A DNA stretch of 29,471 bases from a virus: IMG/VR virus record IMGVR_UViG_3300027734_000238, positions 1-29,471 of that record. The stretch is one strand, 5' to 3'. Shown here piece by piece: positions 5,207 to 23,841 of the stretch (the stretch's first letter is position 1; each line of letters opens with the position of its first letter). The translations under genes were made by a program, and so were the position numbers. The notes beneath the pieces were generated by a model. The model saw nothing but the letters and a program-made list of their open reading frames with translations, was not told where the DNA came from and ran no database searches.

Positions 5207-6427
5207 TTAAGAAGTAGAACCTGGACCAGCGTTTACACGACGGACTAATCCACTAGCACGTGGAGTAGTAACAAGTGTAGTACCAGTTGTGACGTTGTTT
5301 AACATACCAACACCTGCTGGGTTACGTACGATCAGCGTACCTTCCATCAAGAATTGATCTAAACTAGCATCAGCAGAACTGAATACTTCGTTGTTAGGAC
5401 CTAGGTCACGTAATGAACCCCACTGCAACACGTCTTCGTTCAAGAAGTAAATGCTGTTAGAAACACCGGATTGGTCCATGATCCAAGAATCATAGATTTC
5501 GTATGTGTAACTGAAGTCACCTTCGTATGTTTGAATCGTGTCACCACGCTCAACGTTACGACGGTTTACGCTTGTGTTAGAACTAACAATGTTATCACTG
5601 ATAGTAGTTCTTAAACTTGTTGGAACAACCATGGTACGGATCTTAGCGTTATAACGTTGTTCAGCTGTGGTTACCAATTGCTTGTATAACACTGGGCTGA
5701 ATGTTTGGTTAAGAGGACCAGATCCACCGTTTGTGTAGTAGTAATTACCATTGGCCACAACGTACAATGCGTTGACACCACTTGGGCTACCTGTCAATTG
5801 GCTCAATGTTGTTGAACTTGAATCACTGCTGGGTGCGTTGTAATTAGTTATCAAACCAGCTTCTGTAGTAGAAACTGTGCTGAAACTCATAGTACCAGCA
5901 TAAGATGCCAGTGAACCCATACGACGACCAGAAGTGCTGGTTGGTACACCACCAGCACCACCAGGAGCAGTACCTGTTTGACCACTGTACTGAGTACCAA
6001 TTTGGTCGTTACGAACCAATTGTTGTTCCACGTCAAACATCAATTCAATTAGCTGTTTAACTTCCTGATATGCCTGCGGATCTCCCCCGCTCTGCATAAC
6101 AGCACGAGCAGTACCAGTGGCACCAATCGTAGTTTGGAAGATCTGTGTGAAGTTGTTCAAGTTGTAACGCTGATTTGCTTCTGCGTTGTTTGCACTAACT
6201 AATGCACCTTCTGTAACAGCGTTAACTGCTGGCAAACGATAAATGTCGTCTGTCCACAATGGTTGTGTAGAGTTAACTTTGCGTTTCTTTGACATACACA
6301 TGTTTAGAACTGGTGTATCATCTTTAACGCGGTTAGACACATCTAGGTCTAAATCTTTGACAACGATGTCAGTTGCAAATGCACCAGTACCATTGCCAAT
6401 ATTTGTAGTATTAATAAATCCTGCCAT
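5207..6427 (-). CDS. Major capsid protein (SU10/DUF5309-like)
   Basis: 406 residues, the usual size for this group. Residues 88-142 read NNFTQIFQTTIGATGTARAV, then QEVKQLIELMFDVEQQL, then a charged stretch, followed by GRRMGSLASYAG near 166-178. This pattern (an asparagine-rich strand, a 'TQIF...V..TA.AV' strand, a long spine-like helix with E-L-..D-E-Q, then 'R.MGSL..Y') is what I know from the SU10 major capsid / DUF5309 family with the HK97 fold. A Ser/Thr/Gly-rich segment (about 185-235) may be a surface loop. Start supported by AAAGGAG upstream. It directly follows the scaffold-like gene and is followed by a strong hairpin, as expected for the most highly expressed virion gene. Confidence 0.85.
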   Translation of the reverse strand: MAGFINTTNIGNGTGAFATDIVVKDLDLDVSNRVKDDTPVLNMCMSKKRKVNSTQPLWTDDIYRLPAVNAVTEGALVSANNAEANQRYNLNNFTQIFQTTIGATGTARAVMQSGGDPQAYQEVKQLIELMFDVEQQLVRNDQIGTQYSGQTGTAPGGAGGVPTSTSGRRMGSLASYAGTMSFSTVSTTEAGLITNYNAPSSDSSSTTLSQLTGSPSGVNALYVVANGNYYYTNGGSGPLNQTFSPVLYKQLVTTAEQRYNAKIRTMVVPTSLRTTISDNIVSSNTSVNRRNVERGDTIQTYEGDFSYTYEIYDSWIMDQSGVSNSIYFLNEDVLQWGSLRDLGPNNEVFSSADASLDQFLMEGTLIVRNPAGVGMLNNVTTGTTLVTTPRASGLVRRVNAGPGSTS

Positions 6428-7983: not shown

Positions 7984-10269
7984 TTAACTATAAACCTTTG
8001 GGTCGCCCATGGCCATGGCCATAAAGTCCAACTGTGACTCAGCATCTTCACCTGCCACTTCAGCGGCAATCTGCTGTGCTTTGACCTGTGCAAGTTCAGC
8101 GTCTGCAAGGAACTTCTTGTCTTGTGGACTTGGACCTTTAGCTTGTTGACTTTGTTGTGCGGCTTGAACCATCTTAACAACTTCTTCATCACTGGGCAAG
8201 TACGCATTACAGTCTTTGACACCCAATGTATACAATGTATCAGCGTAGGGCTTTTTAACTTTCTTATACATTTCAGGTGTCATGATGCCTTGTTGAACCA
8301 TGCCTTGAACACTTTGCAATAAACCTGTTTGTGCTTTTTGTATAATTTGTAGTCTGTTCAATGAGTTTTCTTCACTCATCATGCCCACGGCTAATTCTAA
8401 TTGTAGTTGTTTGCGGTCTGTCATTGAAGTCATGCTGTCCCAACCAATGTAATCCATGAACTCTGGTTTGCGATCTGGTCTGCATTGTCCAGCGATTTTC
8501 TTAACTCCGTAGTCATCACCATATTGAATCAATGTGCGCCATATCAAATACAGTGCTTCTTTGAGGCCTTCCGCGGCATTGCGTACTGTGTTGTCTTGAA
8601 TAATTTGGTTTGGACTTAGTGCAAGTTGTAGTTTAACACCACTGTTGCCTGCGGCCATGACTTCTGGATTGAATACGTCCTGTGGAGTAGTCATACCAAC
8701 CATGGCCATGACGTCTTTTTGTATACGGTCCATGCTTTGTGTTAAGAACGCTAGGTTGCCGCTGGGAGGAGGAATTTGGTAAATGTCTGTGGCTGGATTA
8801 AATTTTGAATCCAGAATAAAGATAGCTGATTCGCCATCCTGCAACATTTCAAAGTCTAGTCTGTCTGGTTTGACACCAATGCGTGGTGTAGCAGTTAACA
8901 AGCCCAATTGTATTTCTGCACGAGCCGCTGATGTTGAATATTCCTGCATGGGAATAACTGATTCAGCAATACTCATTCCGTAGAAGTTGCCGGGTAGGGG
9001 TTTTGGTACCATGTTGGCCACAGGAATGAATTCTACTTCACGTGCAGAAATAATATAACTGCCGGAATAGATAACTTCAACCAGTTCTAATTCACCATCA
9101 CCATCAATGTCATATCTGTTCCAAACAGTGACAATACTTACTTGACGGCTGTATGGATCAGCTGATGCCGCACTGCTCACTGGAATACCCATGATGGGCA
9201 CTGAATCACGTGCGTGAATAGCCAAGTTGTTCAACACTGAACCTGCTTGGTAAGCACCGCTTTGATTGTATTCTGCGTGTTCAGTGAATTCTTCTAAATT
9301 GATATCTGGATACAGTTCTGTGGCTTCCTGTATGGTCATTGGATCATAGTAACCACAGAATGGTTGATCCTTCATTTCTGGCACTGTGGGATCACAGACC
9401 CAGTAGTGCTGTGCAATAGGATGGAACTTGATGTTGATCATGTAGCCAGTTAACTTGTACTTGGCTTTGTAAATTGTGTTACGCTTAATAGCTTCGTTGA
9501 TGATGCTTTCTTGACCTTCAATGTTTTTGGCAAATATTTCTGTTTGGCCTTGTGCCAATGAAGTATAATTATCGTCTTCGTCTGCTTCACGCATACTGTC
9601 AATGTGCTTGTCCATGAGCTCATTGGTAATTTCTGTTTTTTGGTCACCCATTAACTGTTGTATTTCAGCCATGGCGGCCTGCAAGTTTACATTGATTTGT
9701 CGCTTGCTTTGGCGCAGTGTTGTCAATCCGGATTCAGCGGCCTGTAGTTCAAAGGCTTTTAATTGTTCATTGGTGCCTTCTGTTTCTATATAACGAGTAA
9801 TTTGTTCACGCACCGGTTTGATCATCATCATACCATTTTTGTGCATAGCGGCATCCATGACCCAACGCTCTAGAATAAAGTGCGGATCATTCATTTGGTT
9901 AACAACTTTTGACACCATGCTGGTAGCTTGACGTGCGGCTTCATCATCCCATTCACCGTCAGCTACAAATTCAAAGTTGATTTCGCCATTGGGCATAAGG
10001 CCTTTGGCAATAACTGCTGTGGCGTAATCTACAATAGGCTTGACTGTAGGATGTATGTAATCAATGCCGTTAACGGGTGCAGTACTGTCAGTGACTGCCA
10101 AACATAGATAGTGATAATCGCTGGCTCTGTTAACAGCGTTCTTTGTGCCTAGATAACGCAGGTAACTGGCCATCTTAGTGTCCATCATGCTTTTCATACG
10201 CACAAAGTTGGCGTTGATTTTTTTGTTTCTATTGATGTCCAATATTGGAATATTTTTTATGTCTAACAT
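7984..10269 (-). CDS. Portal protein (P22-like)
   Basis: 761 residues, close to the length of P22-type portals (about 725). The dodecameric portal is the DNA channel and packaging-motor docking site at one capsid vertex. Recognisable features: an N-terminal part with HPTVKPIVDYATAVIAKGLMP; a central charged helical section (residues about 170-260); a WNRYDIDGDGELELVEVIYSG stretch near 390-410; the wing/stem region KPLPGNFYGMSIAESVIPMQ followed by SAARAEIQLGLLTATPRIGV, typical of these portals; and a Gln/Ala-rich C-terminal helix (barrel-like, EVVKMVQAAQQSQQA...AELAQVKAQQIAAEVAGED). It lies downstream of the terminase. AAAGGTAA is upstream of the ATG, with GCTAAATA 28 nt before it. Confidence 0.85.
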   Translation of the reverse strand: MLDIKNIPILDINRNKKINANFVRMKSMMDTKMASYLRYLGTKNAVNRASDYHYLCLAVTDSTAPVNGIDYIHPTVKPIVDYATAVIAKGLMPNGEINFEFVADGEWDDEAARQATSMVSKVVNQMNDPHFILERWVMDAAMHKNGMMMIKPVREQITRYIETEGTNEQLKAFELQAAESGLTTLRQSKRQINVNLQAAMAEIQQLMGDQKTEITNELMDKHIDSMREADEDDNYTSLAQGQTEIFAKNIEGQESIINEAIKRNTIYKAKYKLTGYMINIKFHPIAQHYWVCDPTVPEMKDQPFCGYYDPMTIQEATELYPDINLEEFTEHAEYNQSGAYQAGSVLNNLAIHARDSVPIMGIPVSSAASADPYSRQVSIVTVWNRYDIDGDGELELVEVIYSGSYIISAREVEFIPVANMVPKPLPGNFYGMSIAESVIPMQEYSTSAARAEIQLGLLTATPRIGVKPDRLDFEMLQDGESAIFILDSKFNPATDIYQIPPPSGNLAFLTQSMDRIQKDVMAMVGMTTPQDVFNPEVMAAGNSGVKLQLALSPNQIIQDNTVRNAAEGLKEALYLIWRTLIQYGDDYGVKKIAGQCRPDRKPEFMDYIGWDSMTSMTDRKQLQLELAVGMMSEENSLNRLQIIQKAQTGLLQSVQGMVQQGIMTPEMYKKVKKPYADTLYTLGVKDCNAYLPSDEEVVKMVQAAQQSQQAKGPSPQDKKFLADAELAQVKAQQIAAEVAGEDAESQLDFMAMAMGDPKVYS

Positions 10270-10732: not shown

Positions 10733-12343
10733 TTATTCTGGTGAAAACGTTTGTTTCCACGCTGGTCTATTTGTGTATTCTCTAGATACGTATTTGTCTC
10801 GCTGTGCTGCCATGCGTTGTTGCGGAGTTTTATTATCCCAGGGTTCTGCTATGCCTTGTAGGCAAGCCAATAGAGCATACCTAGCACTATCAATGCAGTC
10901 ATCTGGATCACTAAATCTTCCTTTTTCATCTACATAGTAGTTAGTTGCTTCGCTCAAGAATTGTGTGCAATTCTCATTGACCATTAAACTTCCTACTTCT
11001 AACATTTGTCGCATTTGGTTGATACCATATGCTTTGTGGTTAGTGACTCTGCCCTGTGGATCTGGCGGATTCATAATAGCTTTATCATAGACATTAAGTT
11101 CATACTGTTCAAATAATTCACGAATGCTGTTGGCACTCATAGTGTATCTGCCAGCAGTACTAGCGTCAGCAGGTAAAACGATAGGAGTACCGTACACTTC
11201 AGGACGAAGTAAATGATTGATATACTGAGTGGGGACAGCTTCTTCAATGCCCTGCACAACAATTTGTCTATGTAAAAAAGCAGTCTTCTCATGTGGTTCC
11301 CAATACATTAATGATATAACAGTTTTGTCGTTGACCAAGCCCAAGTCCAAGGCAATAACTCGTTGTATGCGTGGCATGCGTAAAAAGTCAATTTCACCTG
11401 TTTTATATGTGGGCCAGTTGCCGATTTGAAATACTGCACCTTTACCCATGACAGGCTTACCAGCAATACGTGCTTCACGTTCATGCGGCAAGTAATCTCG
11501 TTCCAATTGACGGCGTGTTTCATAGAGCAAGAATGGCATGCCCCATGGATCCATTTCAGGAACATCATCCCATGCCACACGAATAAATTCATAGCCTGTT
11601 TCTTTGTTCCAAAATTTACTTACAAGTCCGTTGAGGCCTTTGAGCGGTGTGAACGAACATAAAACTTTGCCCTGCGTGGTAGCAGTTCTAGTAACGATTT
11701 CACTGAAAAAGTCATCCGGTGGCTGCTCGTCAAACACCGCCAAATTAAGTTTGAAACCTTGTAGTTGCCTAACTTCCTGTGTGTAGTTAGCAAATAATAG
11801 ATAACTGTTAGTACCACTGACGTGCCGGATCTCACAGCCGATGTTGTTAGCACCATCGTTACGCATAGTATCAACAACAATACAATCACGGGGGACAGCA
11901 CCAGTGCCCAAATTTTCTGTAATCTTAACATCCTGTGTTCCTAATAATTCATTTTGCAATACCAGGGCAACCTGACTCCAACCTTCACCTGCTACCATGC
12001 AGGTAATGGGTTGTGTAAATCTATGTCCCTGCCACCAATCAGGATAAAGTCCAGTTAGGTGCATGGCAGTTTCATAGCAGGTACTCACAGTTTTGCCAAT
12101 CCTGTTTGCCGCAAGTATTCCTCGGCGTTCACTGTTGCCAGTTAAAAAGAATTTCTTTTGATGTTCAAAGGGTCTAAAGTATTTGAGCTGATTATACCGC
12201 ATGTCATCGGCAACGGCAATGCTCAAATCCATTAGTTCAGTTTTTACATCGCCATTTAAATTAGCCAAGGAATCCAATGTTAGGTCATACTTGTCCACTG
12301 CCCAACGTAATGCACGGCTCATTAATATTTCATTACCCAACAT
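10733..12343 (-). CDS. terL: Terminase large subunit
   Basis: 536 residues, normal length for a phage packaging ATPase/nuclease, which cuts concatemeric DNA and drives it through the portal. Visible motifs: Walker A-type GILAANRIGKT (residues 75-85), then TAMHLTGLYPDWW-like sequence (ETAMHLTGLYPDWWQG, 91-106), typical of the P22-like terminase group; Walker B LNLAVFDEQ (199-207) with the D-E pair 205/206; a coupling-like SFTPLKG (230-236); and the RNase H-like nuclease start VIALDLGL with Asp333. The ATG is preceded by AAGGTTAC and overlaps the previous stop (TAATG). Confidence 0.92.
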   Translation of the reverse strand: MLGNEILMSRALRWAVDKYDLTLDSLANLNGDVKTELMDLSIAVADDMRYNQLKYFRPFEHQKKFFLTGNSERRGILAANRIGKTVSTCYETAMHLTGLYPDWWQGHRFTQPITCMVAGEGWSQVALVLQNELLGTQDVKITENLGTGAVPRDCIVVDTMRNDGANNIGCEIRHVSGTNSYLLFANYTQEVRQLQGFKLNLAVFDEQPPDDFFSEIVTRTATTQGKVLCSFTPLKGLNGLVSKFWNKETGYEFIRVAWDDVPEMDPWGMPFLLYETRRQLERDYLPHEREARIAGKPVMGKGAVFQIGNWPTYKTGEIDFLRMPRIQRVIALDLGLVNDKTVISLMYWEPHEKTAFLHRQIVVQGIEEAVPTQYINHLLRPEVYGTPIVLPADASTAGRYTMSANSIRELFEQYELNVYDKAIMNPPDPQGRVTNHKAYGINQMRQMLEVGSLMVNENCTQFLSEATNYYVDEKGRFSDPDDCIDSARYALLACLQGIAEPWDNKTPQQRMAAQRDKYVSREYTNRPAWKQTFSPE

Positions 12344-14124: not shown

Positions 14125-14430
14125 TTACTTCTTAGGTGCTTTGTATTTTGCTGGCAACTTAGCACCATTGGCAGTAGAGTTTTTCTTTGCACCAACGTTG
14201 GTGTCTGCGCTTAGACCTTCAACAGCTGGATCACGGAAACTTTTCATGCCTTCACCACGACGAGCAACTGCACTAGTTACCATGTCGGCTAGAGCACTTT
14301 TCTCATTGCCTGTGCTGGCTTTTTCTTTCATGAACGTTGAACGCTTACCGCCTGCATCCATGTTGCCAGTTGTGGGACCACGCTTTTGGTTGATCTCTTT
14401 TGCCTGCATGTTTTTTGTAGATATTCTCAT
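14125..14430 (-). CDS. Small basic protein with RGPTxGN motif
   Basis: 101 residues, Lys/Ala-rich and basic, probably disordered in part. KRGPTTGN at residues 16-23 matches KRGPTVGN and GRGPTKGN in the neighbouring 128-residue protein. The C-terminus is KLPAKYKAPKK. AAAGGAAATC precedes the ATG, which overlaps the previous stop (ATGA). Not recognised as a known family; the basic character would allow DNA or capsid-interior binding. Confidence 0.65.
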   Translation of the reverse strand: MRISTKNMQAKEINQKRGPTTGNMDAGGKRSTFMKEKASTGNEKSALADMVTSAVARRGEGMKSFRDPAVEGLSADTNVGAKKNSTANGAKLPAKYKAPKK

Positions 14431-14813
14431 ACTTGATTTCCTTTAGTTGGGCCACGACCCATGTTAATTTTGTCTGCGTTGCCCTTGTAGTTTTGACCTT
14501 CACTGGGCATAAATGCTCTAGTGCCAGGAAAACGTCCGCCACCACTTTCACGTACTTGTGGATTGGCTGAACCAGGGAACATGTCTTTGCCTGGAGTAAA
14601 CTTTGGTAATGCGGCAGCATCTGGATATGTGCTGTCATCGTCACTCTTGTTGCCTACTGTAGGACCACGTTTGTTGTTAAACGTTTTGTTCGGGTTTTGG
14701 ATACCGCTGTGTTGGTTACCGGCGAATTTGTTTGCACCACGATTAACGCCATTACCTGCCATGCCGTTAAAATCTAAGTTCATATCGCTTTGTGTAATGC
14801 TATTATGCTTCAT
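14427..14813 (-). CDS. Small Asn/Gly-rich protein with two RGPTxGN motifs
   Basis: 128 residues, Asn/Gly/Pro-rich. Copies of the motif are NKRGPTVGN (about 47-55) and GRGPTKGN (about 119-126), and the protein ends one residue after the last copy. Other segments (FTPGKDMFPGS, GRFPGTRAFMPSEG) suggest an extended chain. Overlaps both neighbours by 4 nt (ATGA). AAAAGGA precedes the start. Function unknown. Confidence 0.65.
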   Translation of the reverse strand: MKHNSITQSDMNLDFNGMAGNGVNRGANKFAGNQHSGIQNPNKTFNNKRGPTVGNKSDDDSTYPDAAALPKFTPGKDMFPGSANPQVRESGGGRFPGTRAFMPSEGQNYKGNADKINMGRGPTKGNQV

Positions 14814-14961: not shown

Positions 14962-14969
14962 TATTTATA
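14962..14969 (-). promoter_or_regulatory. Exact T4-type late octamer TATAAATA, 5 nt from ATG
   Basis: TATAAATA then ACATT then ATG on the minus strand. It overlaps the TAA stop and last codon of the preceding gene. The predicted +1 coincides with the start codon; no ribosome-binding site is present. Confidence 0.65.
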
Positions 14970-15327
14970 CTTGTTTGACCCCAGTAAGTTTGCTCAATGC
15001 TTCTGCAAAGGCCAACTGCTTGGCTTGAACTGCGTCTTCGCTGTCAGTTACTTCAATTTTAGCTAGAGTATTCATAACTTTGTTTAGAATCAAATTATGA
15101 TACTTTAACACTACATTCTTATCACCTTCATTGCGAGCTGATATAAAATCTTCAACTAGTAATTCTTCGTAACGCTGTCCGCCTGTGCGGGATTCTAAGC
15201 TGGACAATAAGTCTTCTACGCTGACGTGATTCTTACTGCCTTTTTTACGGCCAGCATTGGGGCGAGCTCCGCCACGGCTGGAGATCTTTTTCTTTTCTTT
15301 GGGTTGTTCTATGCTATCTGTTTTCAT
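14965..15327 (-). CDS. Possible terminase small subunit / DNA-binding protein
   Basis: 120 residues. The basic N-terminus has SSRGGARPNAGRKKGSKN (residues about 17-34), the 'GGARPxAGRKKGS' pattern often seen at the start of phage small terminases and similar DNA-binding proteins. The rest is helical and charged (SVEDLLSSLESRTGGQRYEE, VVLKYHNLILNKVMNTLAKI). It lies at the head of the cluster that leads to the large terminase, consistent with TerS, although about 2.6 kb of small genes intervene. There is no Shine-Dalgarno sequence; GCTAAATA ends 5 nt before the ATG. The TerS assignment is an inference; a regulator is the alternative. Confidence 0.55.
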   Translation of the reverse strand: MKTDSIEQPKEKKKISSRGGARPNAGRKKGSKNHVSVEDLLSSLESRTGGQRYEELLVEDFISARNEGDKNVVLKYHNLILNKVMNTLAKIEVTDSEDAVQAKQLAFAEALSKLTGVKQV

Positions 15328-15332
15328 AATAT

Positions 15333-15340
15333 TATTTAGC
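15333..15340 (-). promoter_or_regulatory. Late-promoter-like octamer GCTAAATA, 5 nt from ATG
   Basis: GCTAAATA-ATATT-ATG on the minus strand, with no Shine-Dalgarno, again predicting a leaderless transcript. Only 3 bp separate it from a plus-strand ATTAAATA. Confidence 0.6.
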
Positions 15341-15343
15341 AGG

Positions 15344-15351
15344 ATTAAATA
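15344..15351 (+). promoter_or_regulatory. Possible divergent promoter octamer ATTAAATA
   Basis: Plus-strand ATTAAATA with 22 nt to the ATG at 15374; the leader carries AGGA. It differs from the main motif by one or two bases, so it is weaker evidence than the minus-strand copies. Confidence 0.35.
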
Positions 15352-15373
15352 CAGTACTAGACTAGGAATTGCA

Positions 15374-15862
15374 ATGAATTACACATGGACCTTTGCCACA
15401 CTTGCTGACGTTGACAGCATAGTTAACATGGCTGAACAACACTTTCAACAAGAAATTGATTTAATCTTTAAACCAGAACCTCCAATATACGCTAGAAACC
15501 TAGCTTATGCTGTGCTTAATCAAACTTACTATCCAGGCAGTGAATTATTAACTGTGGCTAAAACTCCTGACAATACTTTATTAGCTTATAACTGGGCTAA
15601 GAGTAACGACCGCGCATTTTGGAGCGATGATTACATGATTAACGTGCGTATGGTACATTTAAATTTAGAGTTATCCGCTAGACTGCGAATTAAACTAATC
15701 AAAGAAATGATGACGCAATGGGAAGAGCTGGCCAAGTTCAGTAAAAATCCTATTATATGTTCAACTACTATGCGACATGACCAAGATGCTTTTCTTAAAC
15801 TACATGAACGGGCTGGTTACAGCATTAGAGGTAGCTATGCCTATAAAAAAGTAAGTGCTTAA
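15374..15862 (+). CDS. GNAT-like acetyltransferase, the only plus-strand gene
   Basis: 162 residues from the ATG at 15374, chosen because AGGA lies 7 nt upstream; an upstream in-frame ATG at 15257 would run through the divergent gene. Layout fits the GNAT fold: N-terminal strand-helix ATLADVDSIVNMAEQHF; paired strands ELLTVAKTPDNTLLAYNWAK; a helix after the acetyl-CoA region (ARLRIKLIKEMMTQWEELA); and the C-terminal AFLKLHERAGYSIRGSYAYKK, typical of GNAT motif B and last strands. The consensus Q/RxxGxG/A pyrophosphate loop is not obvious, so activity is uncertain. It faces all neighbours and looks like an inserted accessory gene. Confidence 0.65.
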   Translation: MNYTWTFATLADVDSIVNMAEQHFQQEIDLIFKPEPPIYARNLAYAVLNQTYYPGSELLTVAKTPDNTLLAYNWAKSNDRAFWSDDYMINVRMVHLNLELSARLRIKLIKEMMTQWEELAKFSKNPIICSTTMRHDQDAFLKLHERAGYSIRGSYAYKKVSA

Positions 15863-15948: not shown

Positions 15949-16380
15949 TTAATCTAATGTGCTACGCAACATCCAAATTGACTTTTCTATGTCCAAGGCT
16001 TGGTCTTGTGCGTAGTTACTGATTTCTTCTAGACCTTCATCACTGGCAATTATAATCAGTGCTTTATAATCTTCTAGTAAATGTTCCAAGTCCATCATCA
16101 CAGTTTCTAATAACTCATCTGCTTTGCCTTCAATGGCATCTGTGGGTATTGTACTGTCTGCTACAACTTCTGTGATATCGCAGGGCATGTATTCTTGCAT
16201 GGTGCGTAGTAGTTCACCAATCTTATCAATCTCTGCTTGTCTACGTTCATAGACACCCTGTAGTAGTTTATGGTCACTGCGGAAATTGCGACCTGTGATG
16301 TTTACATGTGCCGCATGACTTCTAAAATAAGCAACAAAGTTATTTTTAAAGAGTTGTGTTAGTAGTTCTGCTGTTGTCAT
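15949..16380 (-). CDS. Dps/ferritin-like protein
   Basis: 143 residues, close to a minimal Dps (about 150-170). Dps proteins form 12-mers that oxidise and store iron using H2O2 and often protect DNA. Features: HVNITGRNF (residues 25-33), matching the HWNxxGxNF signature; then SDHKLLQGVYE (35-45), IDKIGE (51-56), and a C-terminal EKSIWMLRSTL, matching the conserved HExxxWMLR end. Aligned to E. coli Dps, ferroxidase ligands H51, H63, D78 and E82 correspond to H25, H37, D52 and E56, whereas D67 corresponds to Gln41. There is no Lys-rich N-terminal DNA-binding tail. AGGAC precedes the ATG, directly after the ejection-type gene. Fold assignment is strong; iron oxidation is likely but untested. Confidence 0.8.
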   Translation of the reverse strand: MTTAELLTQLFKNNFVAYFRSHAAHVNITGRNFRSDHKLLQGVYERRQAEIDKIGELLRTMQEYMPCDITEVVADSTIPTDAIEGKADELLETVMMDLEHLLEDYKALIIIASDEGLEEISNYAQDQALDIEKSIWMLRSTLD

Positions 16381-16381
16381 A

Positions 16382-17455
16382 TTATTGTCCTGGTGCTATG
16401 GGGCTTAAAATTCTGCTTGCGGCTCGTTGTCTAACGCCTGATTTGACCAACGCTTCTAAGTGCGCTCTGCCGCCGTAGATATTTATAGTGCGCTGATCAT
16501 CACTTTGTAATAGGTTACTGGCTTCCTGTGGACTTAATGGAGCAGGAGTAGGACGGTTTAACATCATCTGTTGTGCTTCTACCATTCTGTTTTTTGCACG
16601 ACCACTGGTTAATTCTGGTCCTGCTTGTTCTAAGTATGGTGCGGCTTCGTATAAGTTATAGGCCATACCTGCAGGACCGGCTACTCTAGCGGCACCTTTC
16701 AATATTGGACTAACAATTTTCATTGCTTGACTGCCATAACCTGGTACTGCTTTGAGATATTCCGCGGCTTTTGCGGCAAATTCTGGATTAGCAGCCTGTG
16801 CGGCACGACCTTCTGCAGAATTTAACCAACTGCGAACAGCGTTATTGCCACCGCCACCGGTTTTTGCTCCATATAGTTCAGTGAGTTTTTGGCTGACTTC
16901 AGGAGTTGCGCTTTTACTCATTTGTATGTATGGTTCAATGGTAGTAGTTGTTGGCGCACCACGCACTGGTGTTGTGCTAGGAGCACCTTGACTCAGTACT
17001 TGACTGCCAACGTTTTTACTAGCTTCTAAGGCTTTGTATTTGTCATAGGCACCCATGGCACTTTGACTTGCAGCCACAGGAGGAATACCAATTGTAGCCA
17101 TGCCTATTGCATCTGCCAATGGCGCCATTATAGGACTTGCTTTGTATATATTGGCCACGTCGCGTCCACCCTGGATCAAACTTTGTGCCAATGGTCTAGC
17201 AACAGAAAAAGCATCCCGGCCCAGCTGGCCAGCACCAGTTGCACCCATACCATAACCTGTTACCGCGGGAGCAACTGCACCTAACAATGCACCTTCACTG
17301 GGTGCAACTGGTCCTGTGGGTGCTGTGGGCGTTGTGGACTCCGGCTCCGGAGCTTCTTGGGCCAAGAACGCATCAACATCAAAAGCTTTAGCGGGTTCGC
17401 TGTCAGTTTCTTTTTTTTCTTCTTGGGCTAAAAATGCATCCGGATCAAAGGCCAT
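16382..17455 (-). CDS. Internal virion (ejection-type) protein with FDxDAFLAQE repeat
   Basis: 357 residues. The N-terminus has FDPDAFLAQEE and, 20 residues later, FDVDAFLAQEA, a duplicated short acidic motif. Then come a Pro/Thr-rich linker, a Gly/Ala-rich amphipathic or weakly hydrophobic region (GALLGAVAPAVTGYGMGATG, ASPIMAPLADAIGMATIGIP), and a helical C-terminal half (AQAANPEFAAKAAEYLKAVPG). This composition is typical of proteins packaged in podovirus heads and ejected ahead of the DNA. AGGAG precedes the ATG; it follows the transglycosylase gene by one base. Role inferred from composition and neighbours. Confidence 0.6.
   Translation of the reverse strand: MAFDPDAFLAQEEKKETDSEPAKAFDVDAFLAQEAPEPESTTPTAPTGPVAPSEGALLGAVAPAVTGYGMGATGAGQLGRDAFSVARPLAQSLIQGGRDVANIYKASPIMAPLADAIGMATIGIPPVAASQSAMGAYDKYKALEASKNVGSQVLSQGAPSTTPVRGAPTTTTIEPYIQMSKSATPEVSQKLTELYGAKTGGGGNNAVRSWLNSAEGRAAQAANPEFAAKAAEYLKAVPGYGSQAMKIVSPILKGAARVAGPAGMAYNLYEAAPYLEQAGPELTSGRAKNRMVEAQQMMLNRPTPAPLSPQEASNLLQSDDQRTINIYGGRAHLEALVKSGVRQRAASRILSPIAPGQ
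16480..16487 (-). promoter_or_regulatory. TATAAATA inside the coding region upstream of Dps
   Basis: Exact TATAAATA within codons for T-I-N-I of the 357-residue protein, 99 nt before the Dps-like ATG. It may be chance, or an internal late promoter giving extra Dps expression. Confidence 0.25.
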
Positions 17456-17456
17456 G

Positions 17457-20018
17457 TTAATCTCCTGCTCTTTCTAGTTTCAAACGCACACCGTCTGCCC
17501 TAGGATCTTTAGGATTCTTTTTGAGCCATTCAAATGCTTCTTTTTCTTTAGCATTAAACGGTTTATAGCGTGGCTCTTGTCCAACTTGCAAACGCTCATT
17601 GTCAATGCCATTACGCATGGTAGTTTTAAATATTTCAGCGTTGCGTTTAAATTCTTTTTCGCTGATGTATGGATCATTCAATGCGGCAATGGCAGTTTCT
17701 GCTCGCATACCTTCTGCTTCACTGATACTGCCTGTACCACGTAGGCCATTGTATGCTTCCATGAACGCTTTGCCTTTTAACTGTTCGTATTTTGTTTTGA
17801 AGTTACGTGCATCTGTAGTTGGCGCACTCCAAATACCAGTTAAAATATTTGGCATGCCGATAACATCACTAAAGCCAGGATGTGTTAACACATCATCAAT
17901 GACTTTTAATGCTGATGCTGTGGCTCTTTCAGTCTTGGGCAATGCAATACGCATGTCTGCTAATTTTTTGCTTTCTTCTTTGGCGCCAGTTTCTGCTACT
18001 TCACGCTGAGACTTTTCAATTTCTTTTTGCTTTTGTATGTCTGCCAACGTTGGACGTGCGCTTGGAGCAGGTTGTGCTTGTGGTGCTGCCATTGCTGGAG
18101 TTGCTGTTTGAGGAGCAGCCATGGCAGGCGCAGTGCCTGGAGCAACTGGTGCAACTGGTGCTACAGCTTGTGGTGCAGCCTGTTGTGCTTGTGGAGCAAC
18201 TGGTGCTACAGCTTGTGGAGCAGCCGCTTGCGTTCCAGCACTTGCTGCCTGTGGAGCTGGCTGTACCTGCATTCTTTGTCCTGCTAAACTACCATCTGGC
18301 GACAATCCCATTTCCTGCATGGTTAGAGTAGGCAAACCTTCTGCTTGTAATGCTTTGTTGTAATTTGAAAATATATCCAAACGGTCTTTAAATGTAGCCT
18401 TAGACAAATCATTGGCCAAACCTTGCTGAAGAACTTGCAAGCGATTAGCTTGTTCAGTGGTCATGTTTTCTCTACGGAAGCCTTGCTTTTGTTCAGCGGC
18501 TTGTTGAGCATCAAGTGTGCGTCGTGCTGTTAATGGTTCATTGCCTTTATATACTTCATTTGTTTTGGCATTAACAATACGAGTTTGACCTTTGTCATTG
18601 TGCTGTGCTTGATATAAGTTGCCAGCTTTGTCATTGAAAAACTCAGCAGTTGTGCTCCATTTACCTTGACCAGCACCTGCGGCCGCTGTAATCAATTCTT
18701 CTGGAGTTAGTGCTTTACCTTGGTCATTAAAGCCTTCAATTGGTGCGCCATTTGCACCAACCTTGATCAAATAACCTTTACCATCTGCGCCTGTGACAAT
18801 CTTATCAGTACCGATACCAAGCTTACTGGATTCTTCATCACGCAGTGCTGTCATACCCAATGCGCCAAATAATATATACTTGCCCCAACTGCCATCTTTT
18901 TTACGCTCTGTCATCATTCTAGCAAGTTCACTGGGAGTCTTAGTGCCTAATTCTGCCTGTGCTTTAGTTTGTTCACGTTGTTGTGTGATCAAGTCAGCGG
19001 CACGGTTACGAGCACGTTCACGTAATGCTGGAGGTACAGTTTCATCTGTGCCCATCTTCATTAATGCTGAAGGATCGTTTTGTGCTGTTTGATATTGATC
19101 AATAAAGCCTTGGCTTGACGCAGGCTTGGCTTCTGGTTTAGCCAAACTATACATATTTTGTGGTGCAGGTGCAGCCTGTGTTTGTGCTTGTGCTTGTTCA
19201 GGACTTACCGGAGCTGCCTGTTGAGGAGCTGCCTGTGGTTGTTGTGCCTGAGGAGCAACTGGCTGTACTGGTTGTGGTCGTTGTTGTGCGGCGCCACTGG
19301 CTGGTGCGGCTTGTCCGCCTAGTCTAGAATCTACAATACGACGAACATTGTCATAGCCACCATTGGCTTTTGCGGCTGCTTCACTGATCTGTCCTGTTTT
19401 TAAATAATTGCTGAGACCTTGTGCGCCTAGGAAGTGAGCGGCACCTAAGTTCTGTGGAGTAGGTTCAATGCCTAGGTTCTGTAAGTATCTAGCGTTTTGC
19501 TGTGTATAAGCATTTTGTGCCTGTGTTTGTTGCTCAGGCGTTGTCTGTGTAATATCTTCTGGCAACGTTGGATCTAATTTGCGAGCATCTTGATAACCAG
19601 CCGCAGTCATACCATATGTGCCGTAGGCTGTGCCTTTGTTTCTATCGTGGTAGCCAATATCAGGACGGTTGTCACTTTCTTGACGTGCTATGTCGGCATT
19701 GTAGTCTTCGGGCGCAACAGGCATATTGCGGCTTTGAATTCGCGGAGTCTGCACAGGACTTGTTTGCGCAGGAATTTCTTGTTTGGTTTCAATGGTTCTA
19801 CTACCATTTTCATAGGTAATAACTTTTTGTTCTTTGACAGCAGTTTCATCGGCACGTTTGGCTTCTGCTTCTCTACGTTTGCGTTCTTCTTCTTCACGCT
19901 TTCTACGTTCTTCTTCCGTTTCCATGCCCGCGGGCATTACAGGCGCAACCGGCGCACTATAATCTGTGTATTCGTCATAGCCTCCATAATTGCCCATTGC
20001 GTCATATTGTGCCATCAT
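17457..20018 (-). CDS. Large internal virion protein with transglycosylase-like domain
   Basis: 853 residues. Residues 33-63 are a highly charged E/R/K helix. Residues 107-235 resemble a lysozyme-like/lytic transglycosylase domain: IARQESDN with likely catalytic Glu114, AYGTYGMTAAGYQDA (131-145), and NLGAAHFLGAQGLSNYL (190-206). Long Ala/Pro/Gln-rich linkers follow (about 236-300 and 590-660), then a helical C-terminal part. Phage ejection proteins such as T7 gp16 combine a peptidoglycan-cutting domain with long flexible regions, allowing local wall opening during DNA entry. AAGGAA precedes the two tandem ATGs. Domain assignment is good; its place inside the virion is inferred. Confidence 0.75.
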   Translation of the reverse strand: MMAQYDAMGNYGGYDEYTDYSAPVAPVMPAGMETEEERRKREEEERKRREAEAKRADETAVKEQKVITYENGSRTIETKQEIPAQTSPVQTPRIQSRNMPVAPEDYNADIARQESDNRPDIGYHDRNKGTAYGTYGMTAAGYQDARKLDPTLPEDITQTTPEQQTQAQNAYTQQNARYLQNLGIEPTPQNLGAAHFLGAQGLSNYLKTGQISEAAAKANGGYDNVRRIVDSRLGGQAAPASGAAQQRPQPVQPVAPQAQQPQAAPQQAAPVSPEQAQAQTQAAPAPQNMYSLAKPEAKPASSQGFIDQYQTAQNDPSALMKMGTDETVPPALRERARNRAADLITQQREQTKAQAELGTKTPSELARMMTERKKDGSWGKYILFGALGMTALRDEESSKLGIGTDKIVTGADGKGYLIKVGANGAPIEGFNDQGKALTPEELITAAAGAGQGKWSTTAEFFNDKAGNLYQAQHNDKGQTRIVNAKTNEVYKGNEPLTARRTLDAQQAAEQKQGFRRENMTTEQANRLQVLQQGLANDLSKATFKDRLDIFSNYNKALQAEGLPTLTMQEMGLSPDGSLAGQRMQVQPAPQAASAGTQAAAPQAVAPVAPQAQQAAPQAVAPVAPVAPGTAPAMAAPQTATPAMAAPQAQPAPSARPTLADIQKQKEIEKSQREVAETGAKEESKKLADMRIALPKTERATASALKVIDDVLTHPGFSDVIGMPNILTGIWSAPTTDARNFKTKYEQLKGKAFMEAYNGLRGTGSISEAEGMRAETAIAALNDPYISEKEFKRNAEIFKTTMRNGIDNERLQVGQEPRYKPFNAKEKEAFEWLKKNPKDPRADGVRLKLERAGD

Positions 20019-20029
20019 TTATTCCTTAA

Positions 20030-20746
20030 TTAAAACTTCCATGGAAGCGCAACGCTGGCGCTCTTACCACTAGTGCTGGTGCCTGTTGGGCCCATGTTAT
20101 TATAACTTGAACTTGGTGCACCGTAGGCTATGTTAGCCAAACGACCATATGCATCCATGGGCACGTTTGCGGCTCCTAGAATTTGATTGGCTGCTGATAT
20201 AGCACCTGGCAATGCTTGTCCACCGTAGCCCATTAAGCTGGTAGCGGCACCTTGTCTTTGTTGTGCAACTTGATTGGCAACCTGTGCGGCAATCTGTGCT
20301 TGTTGGCCAGCGTTTGCGCCTGCCATTTGTTGTCCTGCCAGTGCTTGACGTGCTGAACCCAACTGTCCTGCTCCACCAAAACCTATGCCTTGGTTAGTTA
20401 CGTTTTGTTGATACTGTGCCTGCGCAGGTGCAAGTGCAGCCTGTATTTGATTCTGTTCATAGTCTTTGCCGAACAGGCCTTGTAGGCCACTAACGCCTGT
20501 GCGTAGTGCTGATTCACCGGTTTCACCTAGTGTCTGTTGAACTTGTCCTGCTGTACCAGCTAGGTTTTGTCCTGCTTTATACATGCCCGGCAAGTTTTGT
20601 TCATATATGCCTTTGGCGCCACCTACGATGTCTTTGTACGTTGGAGCAATGACATTTGTATAAAAGTCACTTTGTGCTTTTACATATTCACGCTGTTCCG
20701 GACTTAGCGTTGGTATTGATTGACTACTGCTTTTTCCCATTCCCAT
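20030..20746 (-). CDS. Internal virion (ejection-type) protein, Gln/Ala/Gly-rich
   Basis: 238 residues. Starts with a Ser-rich segment, then a helical stretch (LSPEQREYVKAQSDFYTNVI), followed by Gly/Ala/Gln-rich helices (GQLGSARQALAGQQMAGANA, QAQIAAQVANQVAQQRQGAA). This resembles the small ejection proteins of podoviruses (P22 gp7 or T7 gp14 type) by composition and position next to the transglycosylase gene; I see no specific signature. AAAGGAAATT precedes the ATG and GCTAAATA lies 22 nt upstream, so it may head the transcript of the ejection-protein genes and Dps. Confidence 0.6.
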   Translation of the reverse strand: MGMGKSSSQSIPTLSPEQREYVKAQSDFYTNVIAPTYKDIVGGAKGIYEQNLPGMYKAGQNLAGTAGQVQQTLGETGESALRTGVSGLQGLFGKDYEQNQIQAALAPAQAQYQQNVTNQGIGFGGAGQLGSARQALAGQQMAGANAGQQAQIAAQVANQVAQQRQGAATSLMGYGGQALPGAISAANQILGAANVPMDAYGRLANIAYGAPSSSYNNMGPTGTSTSGKSASVALPWKF

Positions 20747-20780: not shown

Positions 20781-21965
20781 TTAAGCCAAGCCCTTGCTAC
20801 GTAAGAATGCATCACGAGCCTGAGGATCTAGGATGCTCAAATAACTTTGTTCTGCTGGGCTCAATTGAGGATAGCTGGGCTGTCCTTGTAATATACTCAA
20901 AGCACTTTGGAACGTTGCAGGTTGTGCTATGTTCTGTATGCCCCATGGTGTCTGTGGCGCTGTGGGCACTGTGTTGTATGCTGTTGCATTAAAGGCGTCG
21001 CCTGTTTGTAATGCTCTACCTGTGCCCCAATAGAATTTACTTTGGACATCATTGGTTGTATTGTAAAACGGTATGGATTCAATCATGCCAGGATTTAGAT
21101 ATTTGCCGGCTTTGCCTGTTGTGGGAACAACTGGTACCGTTGGGCCTGGGCCTATAGGAACTACTGGAGTGGCTACACCGCCGTCTCCGCCTCCATCACC
21201 ACCTCCATCACCACCTCCATCGCCGGTATCACCCGTGTCTCCAGTATCATCTCCGGTATCATCTCCGGTATCATCACCAGTGTCATCGCCAGTGTCATCA
21301 CCAGTGTCATCACCAGTGTCATCGCCAGTGTCATCGCCAGTGTCATCACCAGTATCATCTCCAGTGTCGTCTCCTGTGTCATCACCAGTATCATCACCAG
21401 TATCATCTCCAGTATCATCTCCAGTATCATCTCCAGTATCATCACCGGTGTCATCTCCTGTGTCATCGCCGGTATCGTCTCCACTGTCGTCTCCGGAATC
21501 GTCACCCGAATCATCTCCACTGTCACCAGTATCACCAGTATCACCAGTATCGCCAGTATCGCCTGTGTCACCTGTGTCACCACCGGCATCACCACCTGCG
21601 TCACCACCTGCGTCACCACCGGCATCACCTCCGGCATCACCACCTGCGTCACCTCCGGCATCTCCACCAGCGTCTCCGCCACCTCCGTCGCCACCACCTC
21701 CATCACCACCACCGCCATCTCCTCCGCCACCTCCGTCGCCTCCACCTCCATCACCACCACCGCCATCATCAAATTCCATTAAACCTGTGTATGGATTGAC
21801 AGCGCCGGATCCGCCATGTTCTTTTAACAAGTCTACTTCATCTGGATTGATGTGAGCCACAATGGTATCTTCACCGCGTCCGTGTTTAGCCAGTTCTTTA
21901 GCTAGGCGTGCTAGATCAGCGTCACTTAGTGTGCTGAAATCAATTTGGTTCTGTTTTTTCTTCAT
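20781..21965 (-). CDS. Ejection-type protein with extreme Asp/Gly repeat domain
   Basis: 394 residues. The N-terminus (residues about 35-68) has AHINPDEVDLLKEHGGSG then NPYTGLMEFDDGG, a 'HINPxE..LLK..GGSG..NP.TGL.EF' pattern that I associate with phage internal virion proteins. About 200 residues of tandem repeats follow: GGGGD, AGGD (8), TGD (6), SGDD (4), TGDD (about 19), then GGGD units. A Pro-rich linker (TPVVPIGPGPTVPVVPTT) leads to a folded C-terminus with LSILQGQPSYPQLSPAEQSYLSILD. The repeat is strongly acidic and probably disordered or cation-binding. It is not an RTX nonapeptide. AGGAC lies upstream of the ATG. Confidence 0.7.
   Translation of the reverse strand: MKKKQNQIDFSTLSDADLARLAKELAKHGRGEDTIVAHINPDEVDLLKEHGGSGAVNPYTGLMEFDDGGGGDGGGGDGGGGGDGGGGDGGGGDGGGGDAGGDAGGDAGGDAGGDAGGDAGGDAGGDAGGDTGDTGDTGDTGDTGDTGDSGDDSGDDSGDDSGDDTGDDTGDDTGDDTGDDTGDDTGDDTGDDTGDDTGDDTGDDTGDDTGDDTGDDTGDDTGDDTGDDTGDDTGDDTGDDTGDTGDTGDGGGDGGGDGGGDGGVATPVVPIGPGPTVPVVPTTGKAGKYLNPGMIESIPFYNTTNDVQSKFYWGTGRALQTGDAFNATAYNTVPTAPQTPWGIQNIAQPATFQSALSILQGQPSYPQLSPAEQSYLSILDPQARDAFLRSKGLA
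21178..21772 (-). repeat. Tandem low-complexity repeat coding Asp/Gly units
   Basis: About 590 bp of 9-, 12- and 15-bp units. On the plus strand the main unit looks like TCATCACCAGTG with synonymous variation. The protein period is kept while third positions vary, so selection on the amino acid pattern is likely, not just recent slippage. Unit number may vary between relatives and is prone to assembly error. Confidence 0.85.
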
Positions 21966-22010: not shown

Positions 22011-22661
22011 TCAATATATTGGACCAAAGTCTGGATCACGTTTGAACTTTTCCACGTAGGCTTTCCATGACATGGCAAAGTCTTCGCAGGTAAACAAACT
22101 GATTAGTTCTTTTTGTTTAACATAGTTCTCAGGATGTGAGGCCTGTGTTTTGTTGATCAATGTGGCATACTGACCGGCTAGGGGCAAACCAAATGCTTCT
22201 AAAGTCTTGGCGGCTGTCTTCAATGTGTTTTGACTACCAGCTACATCATCTACCAACAGTATAGGTAATCCTATGGCGCGGCCTTCTGTAAAGTTTAATA
22301 AGCCGTAGACCTTACGTGCTTTCTTTAAACTGATCATTGGTGTGCCCAAGATAGTTGCCATGGCCAAGCCTAGGGGAACTCCAGCATCTTCACATGCTCC
22401 AATTTGCACATGCTTGTCGGGCAGTTTATCTATCAACAGTTCAGCCGCGGTGAACACAAACTTGGGATCAAACATACAACGGCGTAGATATATCTGCCAT
22501 GTGTAATTTGTATTGGCTCGCTTGCCCGGCAACTTGTGGCCACCGGGTGCTACTCTGTATACTGCACGATGTTCTATTTCGTCACGTAGGTATTCCCACT
22601 TGGCGGCTTGTGCCGCTTGGGTGGCTATGTTCTGCAATTCTTGTGCTCTTTGACTATTCAT
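22011..22661 (-). CDS. Orotate-phosphoribosyltransferase-like PRTase
   Basis: 216 residues from the ATG at 22661, preferred over an ATG 30 nt upstream because AAAGGAAAAG precedes it. Type I phosphoribosyltransferases transfer ribose-5-phosphate from PRPP to a base. The PRPP loop is ILLVDDVAGSQNTL (134-147), with the two acidic residues D138/D139; ARKVYGLLNFTEG (115-127) resembles the OPRT region before it. The N-terminus (HKLPGKRANTNYTWQIYLRR) is not obviously OPRT. It could act on orotate or another nucleobase, and substrate cannot be read. The C-terminal LFTCEDFA recurs in the 88-residue protein at 27321-27587. It lies unusually between tail and ejection genes. Confidence 0.75.
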   Translation of the reverse strand: MNSQRAQELQNIATQAAQAAKWEYLRDEIEHRAVYRVAPGGHKLPGKRANTNYTWQIYLRRCMFDPKFVFTAAELLIDKLPDKHVQIGACEDAGVPLGLAMATILGTPMISLKKARKVYGLLNFTEGRAIGLPILLVDDVAGSQNTLKTAAKTLEAFGLPLAGQYATLINKTQASHPENYVKQKELISLFTCEDFAMSWKAYVEKFKRDPDFGPIY

Positions 22662-22677
22662 TTCTTTTCCTTTTCTA

Positions 22678-23841
22678 TTAAAATTTAACAACTTGAACGC
22701 TAATGTTTCTGTTGCCTAACTTGCTCTGTGAAACTTCACAGGCTCCAGTATCATTTATCACTCTAAACAACAAATCTACCCTGTACAAATAATAAGCACT
22801 GCCAGGATTGTCAATTACGTTGGAGAACACAGTTTCTTCCACGGGCAAGGTTGCTGTGCCTATGGCCACGGCATATTGATAAGTTTGTAGTGCCACAGTT
22901 TGATCATAGAAATATTGAAACTCTGTATTGGTCAATGTCAATGAGGGCACAGCCACGTATCTGTTAATGGCCACAGTATACTCTAGAGTTGTTGTCGCTG
23001 TGGCAGTGTATGTTATGGTGTTGTCCAATTGAGCAGATATAAACACACGATCCAAATTACCATTGACAGTGACATTGCTGGCACAGTCTGTGGTATTCCA
23101 ATATACGCTGCCGGGAAAGCCTGGACTTACACCCACCACAGGAGGTTGTAGTGTATTGCTGACTTTGATTGATCCACCGGTGCTGGTACCCGCGTTGGCA
23201 ATGTCCACAGCACTTTGCAGTGTCACTGTGCTTTCAGTGCAGGCCACAACTCCGGGCCCTGTATACAATCCATTATAATATGCGCTGCCAAATATCAAAG
23301 GCAGTGTGCCTAGTTCAAAGGGCGGTGTGGGCTGTGCTGTGGCAAAGGTCACTATAATAGTTCTTGCATCCTGCCAAGCTATTGTGCCAATTGCAATGGG
23401 TGCAACATATAGTACCGCAGGAGGTAAATTGTAAAATGTCACAGCACCCTGCACTGCACCCACATTGGCCACGGTAAGGGGAACTATCCATGGCGTATTG
23501 ATTTCATCATAGTCAACGCTGACCAGCGCACCTGCGGCTATGTTAGTGCCATATACATATTGTCCTATGGCAATCTTACTAGGTATATTGGCATCATTTT
23601 GTCTTAGACTGCCGGGATCACTGACGGTAAGTTCTGTGCTACCACTGGCACCATGCCCGGGTGTGGTATAGCCTGCCACCGTACTGGGCTGACGCACATT
23701 GCCACGTAGCCATGCTGTGAAACTGTCATTGAAGCCAGAGAAGTTTTGCCCTAGGCCTGATGGGCCACTCAGCGCATAGTTGATGGCCTCAACTAGACTT
23801 TCACTGTCCTTACGTGCATATTCAACTGGAAACTGTGCCAT
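22678..23841 (-). CDS. Virion structural protein, tail region
   Basis: 387 residues. The N-terminal domain (FPVEYARKDSESLVEAINYALSG) looks folded; the remainder is beta-rich with Thr/Val/Ala strands. The segment IGQYVYGTNIAAGALVSVD...GAVQGAVTFY (about 92-137) matches the type of beta module inserted in the adaptor. The C-terminus has DLLFRVINDTGACEVSQSKL. AGAGGATG precedes the ATG, which overlaps the nozzle-like gene's stop (TAATG), so both are co-translated and probably co-assembled in the tail. Precise role unknown. Confidence 0.6.
   Translation of the reverse strand: MAQFPVEYARKDSESLVEAINYALSGPSGLGQNFSGFNDSFTAWLRGNVRQPSTVAGYTTPGHGASGSTELTVSDPGSLRQNDANIPSKIAIGQYVYGTNIAAGALVSVDYDEINTPWIVPLTVANVGAVQGAVTFYNLPPAVLYVAPIAIGTIAWQDARTIIVTFATAQPTPPFELGTLPLIFGSAYYNGLYTGPGVVACTESTVTLQSAVDIANAGTSTGGSIKVSNTLQPPVVGVSPGFPGSVYWNTTDCASNVTVNGNLDRVFISAQLDNTITYTATATTTLEYTVAINRYVAVPSLTLTNTEFQYFYDQTVALQTYQYAVAIGTATLPVEETVFSNVIDNPGSAYYLYRVDLLFRVINDTGACEVSQSKLGNRNISVQVVKF

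Follow-up and report, generated by a model that had tools for sequence, protein, structure and literature searches.

The window analysed here, 29,471 nucleotides of an uncultivated virus, is a linear fragment in which all structural genes lie on the minus strand. Its capsid and portal proteins belong to the families of SU10-type podoviruses, and the features that bear on the present analysis are the following:

5207..6427, minus strand: major capsid protein, SU10 type (SU10_MCP, E 2.2e-34)
7984..10269, minus strand: portal protein, SU10 type (SU10_portal, E 5.3e-47)
10733..12343, minus strand: large terminase subunit (Terminase_6N and Terminase_6C)
14965..15327, minus strand: presumed small terminase subunit, from position and conservation; no Pfam match
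15257..15862, plus strand: convergent ORF of 201 aa (upstream starts possible), acetyltransferase-like by eye, conserved beside Dps in 74 of 76 related loci; no Pfam match
15949..16380, minus strand: gene for a Dps-type mini-ferritin, 143 aa, from Pfam, PHROG and PDB matches, fold and invariant ligands
16382..17455, minus strand: Ala-rich protein of 357 aa, encoded immediately ahead of Dps in the operon; probable internal virion or ejection protein, from position; no Pfam or PHROG match
17457..20018, minus strand: probable ejection protein, 853 aa (PHROG_2534, 'released from the phage upon host infection', E 9.8e-15)
20030..20746, minus strand: probable ejection or internal virion protein, 238 aa, from position and conservation; no Pfam or PHROG family match

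Transcription proceeds from 20030-20746 through 17457-20018 and 16382-17455 to Dps, beyond which come the convergent ORF of 201 aa and then the genes for the presumed small and the large terminase subunit. A preliminary description of the locus had placed the Dps gene next to internal virion genes, and this holds, as a single nucleotide separates Dps from the stop of 16382-17455, which is itself preceded by the PHROG_2534 match. An ejection role of the upstream genes is probable, given that one PHROG match, their position and the analogy with SU10. The product of 20030-20746 is conserved in 42 of the 76 related loci, many of which end before its position, while a homologue of 16382-17455 was detected in 9 of the 76, the gene in this slot being variable.

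Several other features of the region deserve mention in their own right. Between the terminase genes (14125-14813, minus strand) are encoded two adjacent small proteins which have in common an RGPTxGN motif (in the forms RGPTTGN, RGPTVGN and RGPTKGN) and are conserved across the clade without a named function. A 394-aa protein (20781-21965, minus strand), with homologues detected in 33 of the 76 loci, carries a long Asp/Gly/Thr repeat built from about 23 copies of a 12-bp unit. A phosphoribosyltransferase-like gene (22011-22691, minus strand; a weak Pfam match of 19.8 bits, below the cut-off) is located among the tail genes and is rare in related loci. Finally, the homologue of 15257-15862 in a sister clade devoid of Dps lies on the terminase strand, and the orientation of this gene thus differs between the clades.

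The Dps reading frame runs along the minus strand (16380..15949) and encodes protein P0001, whereas the plus strand of the same interval has stops throughout. P0001 matches Pfam Ferritin (45.8 bits, E 7.6e-12, cut-off 24.5) and PHROG_3636 (97 bits, E 2.3e-27), the phage Dps family annotated as 'DNA binding protein'; a search of NCBIfam gave no match. Comparison with the PDB by phmmer recovered Helicobacter CAIP, HP-NAP and many other Dps proteins (5lbh at E 2e-12), and a profile built from 68 relatives of P0001 strengthened the Dps match to E 2.6e-23. An AlphaFold2 model of the monomer, computed on the alignment of relatives, has a mean pLDDT of 97.7 and consists of helices at residues 3-27, 33-60, 69-74, 87-114 and 118-142, that is, a four-helix bundle with the short BC helix in the middle loop that is typical of Dps. 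The best Foldseek matches of this model are Dps structures, among them HP-NAP and the Bacillus, Listeria and Staphylococcus proteins, at TM 0.91-0.95 (mostly 0.92-0.95) and 1.3-1.6 A. Sequence families and predicted fold hence concur with the earlier assignment to Dps, the resemblance being well above what chance would give; structure prediction, which had been proposed as a check on the dodecamer, returned a ferritin-like bundle for the monomer, and the motifs HVNITGRNF, HKLLQG, IDKIGE and WMLRS are all found where they had been reported. Relatives of P0001 are encoded in 237 viral stretches. Between relatives the median dN/dS is 0.19, and the gene is, judged by this ratio, under purifying selection. 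A chance ORF or a pseudogene is ruled out by this selection together with the universality of the gene in its clade, and 15949-16380 is a real gene for a Dps-type mini-ferritin.

The putative ferroxidase site was examined in an alignment of 74 distinct complete homologues, with identity down to 42%. H25, H37, D52 and E56, which the preliminary description had named as ferroxidase ligands, are indeed at these positions and invariant in all 74, as is H22. Since 23 of the 143 columns are invariant, the chance of all four named ligands falling among them is about 5e-4. According to PMC4192664, Dps proteins keep all four of these residues without exception and use them to chelate iron between the two subunits of a dimer. 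In apo HP-NAP, His22 pairs with Asp52. That the ligands contributed by either side of the dimer interface do not vary lends indirect backing to a putative 12-subunit hollow shell.

The fifth canonical ligand position, 41, is Gln in P0001 rather than Asp. The preliminary description was right about the letter, and yet the substitution is uninformative: within the clade the position is Q in 47, E in 15, G in 11 and N in 1, Gly predominates there among 78 other viral Dps, and HP-NAP has Glu (PMC4192664). Gln41 as a special feature is consequently discarded, and a residue other than Asp here is no defining failure for a Dps, because the site is also variable in accepted members of the family. A better oddity of the clade is the loss of Trp26, the residue after the first ligand His, which is replaced by V, A, I or L in 73 of the 74 homologues and by another residue in the last; one Phe was seen at this position in the clade, and the Dps of Synechococcus phage S-EIV1 has Leu. 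Trp26 of HP-NAP is well conserved in Dps and moves on iron binding (PMC4192664). It is present in 12 of 13 members of an independent Dps comparison set, the only set that tells how rare its loss is, as the 78 viral sequences had been fetched with a pattern requiring Trp. This residue is conserved in Dps, though not strictly defining. With Trp26 replaced and Gln at the fifth ligand position, the chemistry of the site could be altered.

With 13 Lys and Arg against 27 Asp and Glu, P0001 has a pI of 4.5, and the pI lies between 4.2 and 4.7 in all 74 clade proteins. Its N-terminus is in register with the start of HP-NAP and leaves no room for a basic tail, in agreement with the earlier remark that a DNA-binding tail is lacking; neither the basic tail nor the basic surface of E. 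coli-type DNA-binding Dps is seen. Given a strongly acidic shell without a tail, DNA binding by the clade Dps is unlikely. As a whole, the first reading stands as regards the Dps fold, the four ligands, the missing tail and the place beside ejection-protein genes; it falls short on Gln41, and it overlooked both the loss of Trp26 and the status of the gene in its clade.

That status was assessed in two partly overlapping sets of loci, which have some contigs in common. In the 76 related viral loci fetched by Dps itself, the neighbourhood is alike in essentially all. Loci were also fetched by terminase, so as to avoid ascertainment through Dps, and Dps is present in 34 of 34 such loci that reach 1700 nt or farther upstream of the small terminase; the 8 loci that have a small terminase and no Dps all end within 528 nt of the small terminase. 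All 28 long contigs of the clade contain exactly one Ferritin match. In the sister clade, whose terminase is about 50-55% identical and whose capsid genes are in the same order, a Ferritin or Dps match was found in none of 24 long records, one of which is the complete circular MW202484. The Dps start lies between -4 and +18 nt from the preceding stop in 63 of 66 loci, although the preceding gene itself ranges from about 200 to 1085 residues. Dps is thus a core gene of an uncultivated podovirus clade with SU10-type capsid and portal, and the last gene of its ejection-protein block. Phage Dps as such is already known; what is new is that a clade has it as a core gene coupled to the ejection operon.

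The clade proteins form a monophyletic group (support 0.95) in a tree of 106 Dps domains. Their sister group, at 0.87, consists of S-EIV1 and one other viral sequence, and deeper nodes are weak. No relative came up when a collection of bacterial and archaeal genomes, one per species for 84,980 species, was scanned by pattern, a result that excludes close relatives only, as just two degenerate patterns were used. Recent capture from a host was considered and set aside, the scan having returned no relative and the tree grouping the gene with phage Dps. With regard to the host, the terminase profile matched nothing more than 50 residues at one end of a single Bacteroidota MAG contig, too little to be of use. 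In a comparison for co-inheritance, distances between Dps proteins track those of their neighbours weakly (best rho 0.23 for 20030-20746, and 0.13 for terminase), whereas terminase distances track their own neighbours better (rho 0.33-0.54). The weak correlation for Dps implies that the genomes are mosaic, with modules shuffled within the clade.

A census of viral contigs by DNA pattern revealed at least 120 stretches, and all of the 80 loci listed are Dps genes, 8 of them with Dps inside a larger protein. At L259:306-2567 (minus strand), directly after portal and terminase genes, a 754-aa protein combines Dps (about residues 315-454) with a prohead serine protease (Peptidase_S78, 526-677), and several BFVD proteins named 'Prohead protease' match the Dps fold. 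At L242:812-2014 a portal-like segment is joined to Dps beside a Mu F-like gene, and at L237:664-2892, L298:5977-8154 and L310:2140-3465 Dps is joined to DUF5824. Stand-alone Dps genes are located between large terminase and portal at L281:3708-4148 (minus strand) and L284:9438-9878 (plus strand), with a protease-capsid fusion gene shortly past Dps, in a phage type unrelated to the clade (the Pfam run covered the portal and fusion of L281 and the terminase of both). The idea that viral Dps commonly has a prohead protease nearby was considered and dropped, since one occurs in only 5 of 50 other Dps-bearing viral records. The link between Dps and the head in viruses is recurrent, not general, and these fusions and cassettes are the best available argument, by analogy, that Dps can be head cargo.

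How, then, might the clade use its mini-ferritin? On balance we lean, with modest confidence, towards a late-made ferroxidase that clears iron and peroxide during genome replication and packaging and in this way protects the phage DNA. This reading builds on what was observed, namely homology to Dps, the predicted fold, ligands without variation, purifying selection, an acidic protein, the place in the operon and core status in the clade. Dps would be made late, as the final gene of the ejection-protein operon, the one indication of this timing being its position there, and its subunits would form the hollow 12-mer that is usual for Dps. Fe(II) would be bound where two subunits meet, by H25 and H37 from one chain together with D52 and E56 from its partner; the iron would be oxidised (in Dps typically by H2O2) and stored as ferric oxide. 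Acting in the cytoplasm during assembly, the shell would remove both Fenton reactants while much phage DNA is being replicated and packaged. Such protection would be chemical, as an acidic shell without tails would not coat DNA.

The main alternative, tentative and rather unlikely, is that Dps is packaged in the head together with the ejection proteins, where it would shield the genome of the particle from iron and peroxide damage or carry iron. The location of Dps at the close of the ejection-protein operon, shared by the whole clade, speaks for it, and packaging gains plausibility from the unrelated viruses described above, in which Dps is fused to prohead protease (L259, BFVD) or to a portal-like segment (L242), or is set between terminase and portal (L281, L284). 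Mass spectrometry of a concentrated phage sample moreover identified six peptides of the SU10 Dps, but that sample had not been purified on CsCl (PMC4281155), and the ejection proteins of purified SU10 are gp20-24, with Dps not among them (PMC9509320). Against packaging stand also the ORF 15257-15862, which is not virion-like and is common to the same junction, and the scarcity of prohead protease in other Dps-bearing records. About as tentative is a wider reading, in which a mini-ferritin would be a standard internal component of the particle, an antioxidant or iron cargo beside the genome. This would hold for the clade and also for other phages that arrived at it independently, whether through a prohead protease fusion or through a Dps gene inserted between terminase and portal. 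An assembled Dps dodecamer measures about 9 nm, and some ejection proteins are thought to pass the portal unfolded. An intact dodecamer of this size could not pass the portal channel, and delivery with the DNA, as the preliminary description had raised, would need unfolded subunits; delivery of the intact shell is physically implausible.

It is quite improbable that Dps is an auxiliary metabolic gene in support of the host, guarding the infected cell from oxidative stress or withholding iron, with its position among virion genes incidental. Freshwater phage ferritin and Dps have been read as ROS defence (PMC6802176), relief of oxidative stress has been proposed in passages on gut 'Gratiaviridae' and Lactobacillus phages (PMC8008677, PMC6669764), and SU10-type isolates carry Dps in their replication region. 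The fixed position, the tight operon coupling and the presence in every member are nevertheless unlike sporadic accessory genes, and the genome pattern scan found no close host homologue. Least credible is a Dps that has lost or changed its ferroxidase function and serves as a structural shell. Although Trp26 is lost throughout the clade and position 41 is not Asp, structure would not by itself require the four metal ligands and His22 to be invariant.

Phage Dps is usually explained as an aid to host tolerance of oxidative stress. A Dps found throughout a clade, phage-specific in descent and coupled to the ejection operon, points instead to the making or protecting of the particle. Since Dps is always at the end of the head-protein operon, it is suggested that phages of the clade handle iron and peroxide during assembly, possibly inside the particle. 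Taken with the fusions and head cassettes of other phages, this raises the question of whether a ferritin, and iron with it, resides within the virion, which matters for how phages survive oxidative conditions and for proposals of iron-carrying phages (the 'Ferrojan Horse' hypothesis).

Among known proteins, the tail-less Helicobacter HP-NAP and CAIP and Listeria Dps are of similar length, have the same ligands and match the fold of P0001 at TM 0.92-0.95 with about 22-26% identity, but they are bacterial, and HP-NAP and CAIP have Trp at position 26, unlike the clade. The nearest named relative by E-value is the 'DNA-binding ferritin-like protein' of S-EIV1 (33% identity, E 2e-10), which is likewise devoid of Trp26; it differs in a long Pro-rich N-terminal extension and a pI of 6.4, and its gene adjoins one for sulfate adenylyltransferase, where that of the clade adjoins virion genes. 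Gut 'Gratiaviridae' and Lactobacillus phages, as the clade, encode a Dps; the passages on them mention no virion operon for it (PMC8008677, PMC6669764), and that on the Lactobacillus phage places the gene near DNA metabolism genes (PMC6669764). No report of a packaged phage Dps was found in the literature searched, the 'DPS' of PMC6989608 being a polysaccharide and not the ferritin. The SU10-type (C3) podoviruses and their relatives have capsid, portal or terminase kinship with the phages of the clade. SU10 gp67, GAP52 gp52, 7-11 gp73 and the Aeromonas LAh Dps belong, as the clade Dps, to PHROG_3636 (187 bits for gp67, 97 for P0001), with the four ligands conserved and, for GAP52, 7-11 and LAh, 27-31% identity to P0001. 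They keep the Trp26 that the clade lacks, and SU10 gp67 has about 35 additional N-terminal residues. In these isolates Dps is found in the middle or replication region, beside genes for DNA polymerase, thymidylate synthase, ribonucleotide reductase and dCTP deaminase, whereas in the clade it closes the ejection-protein block.
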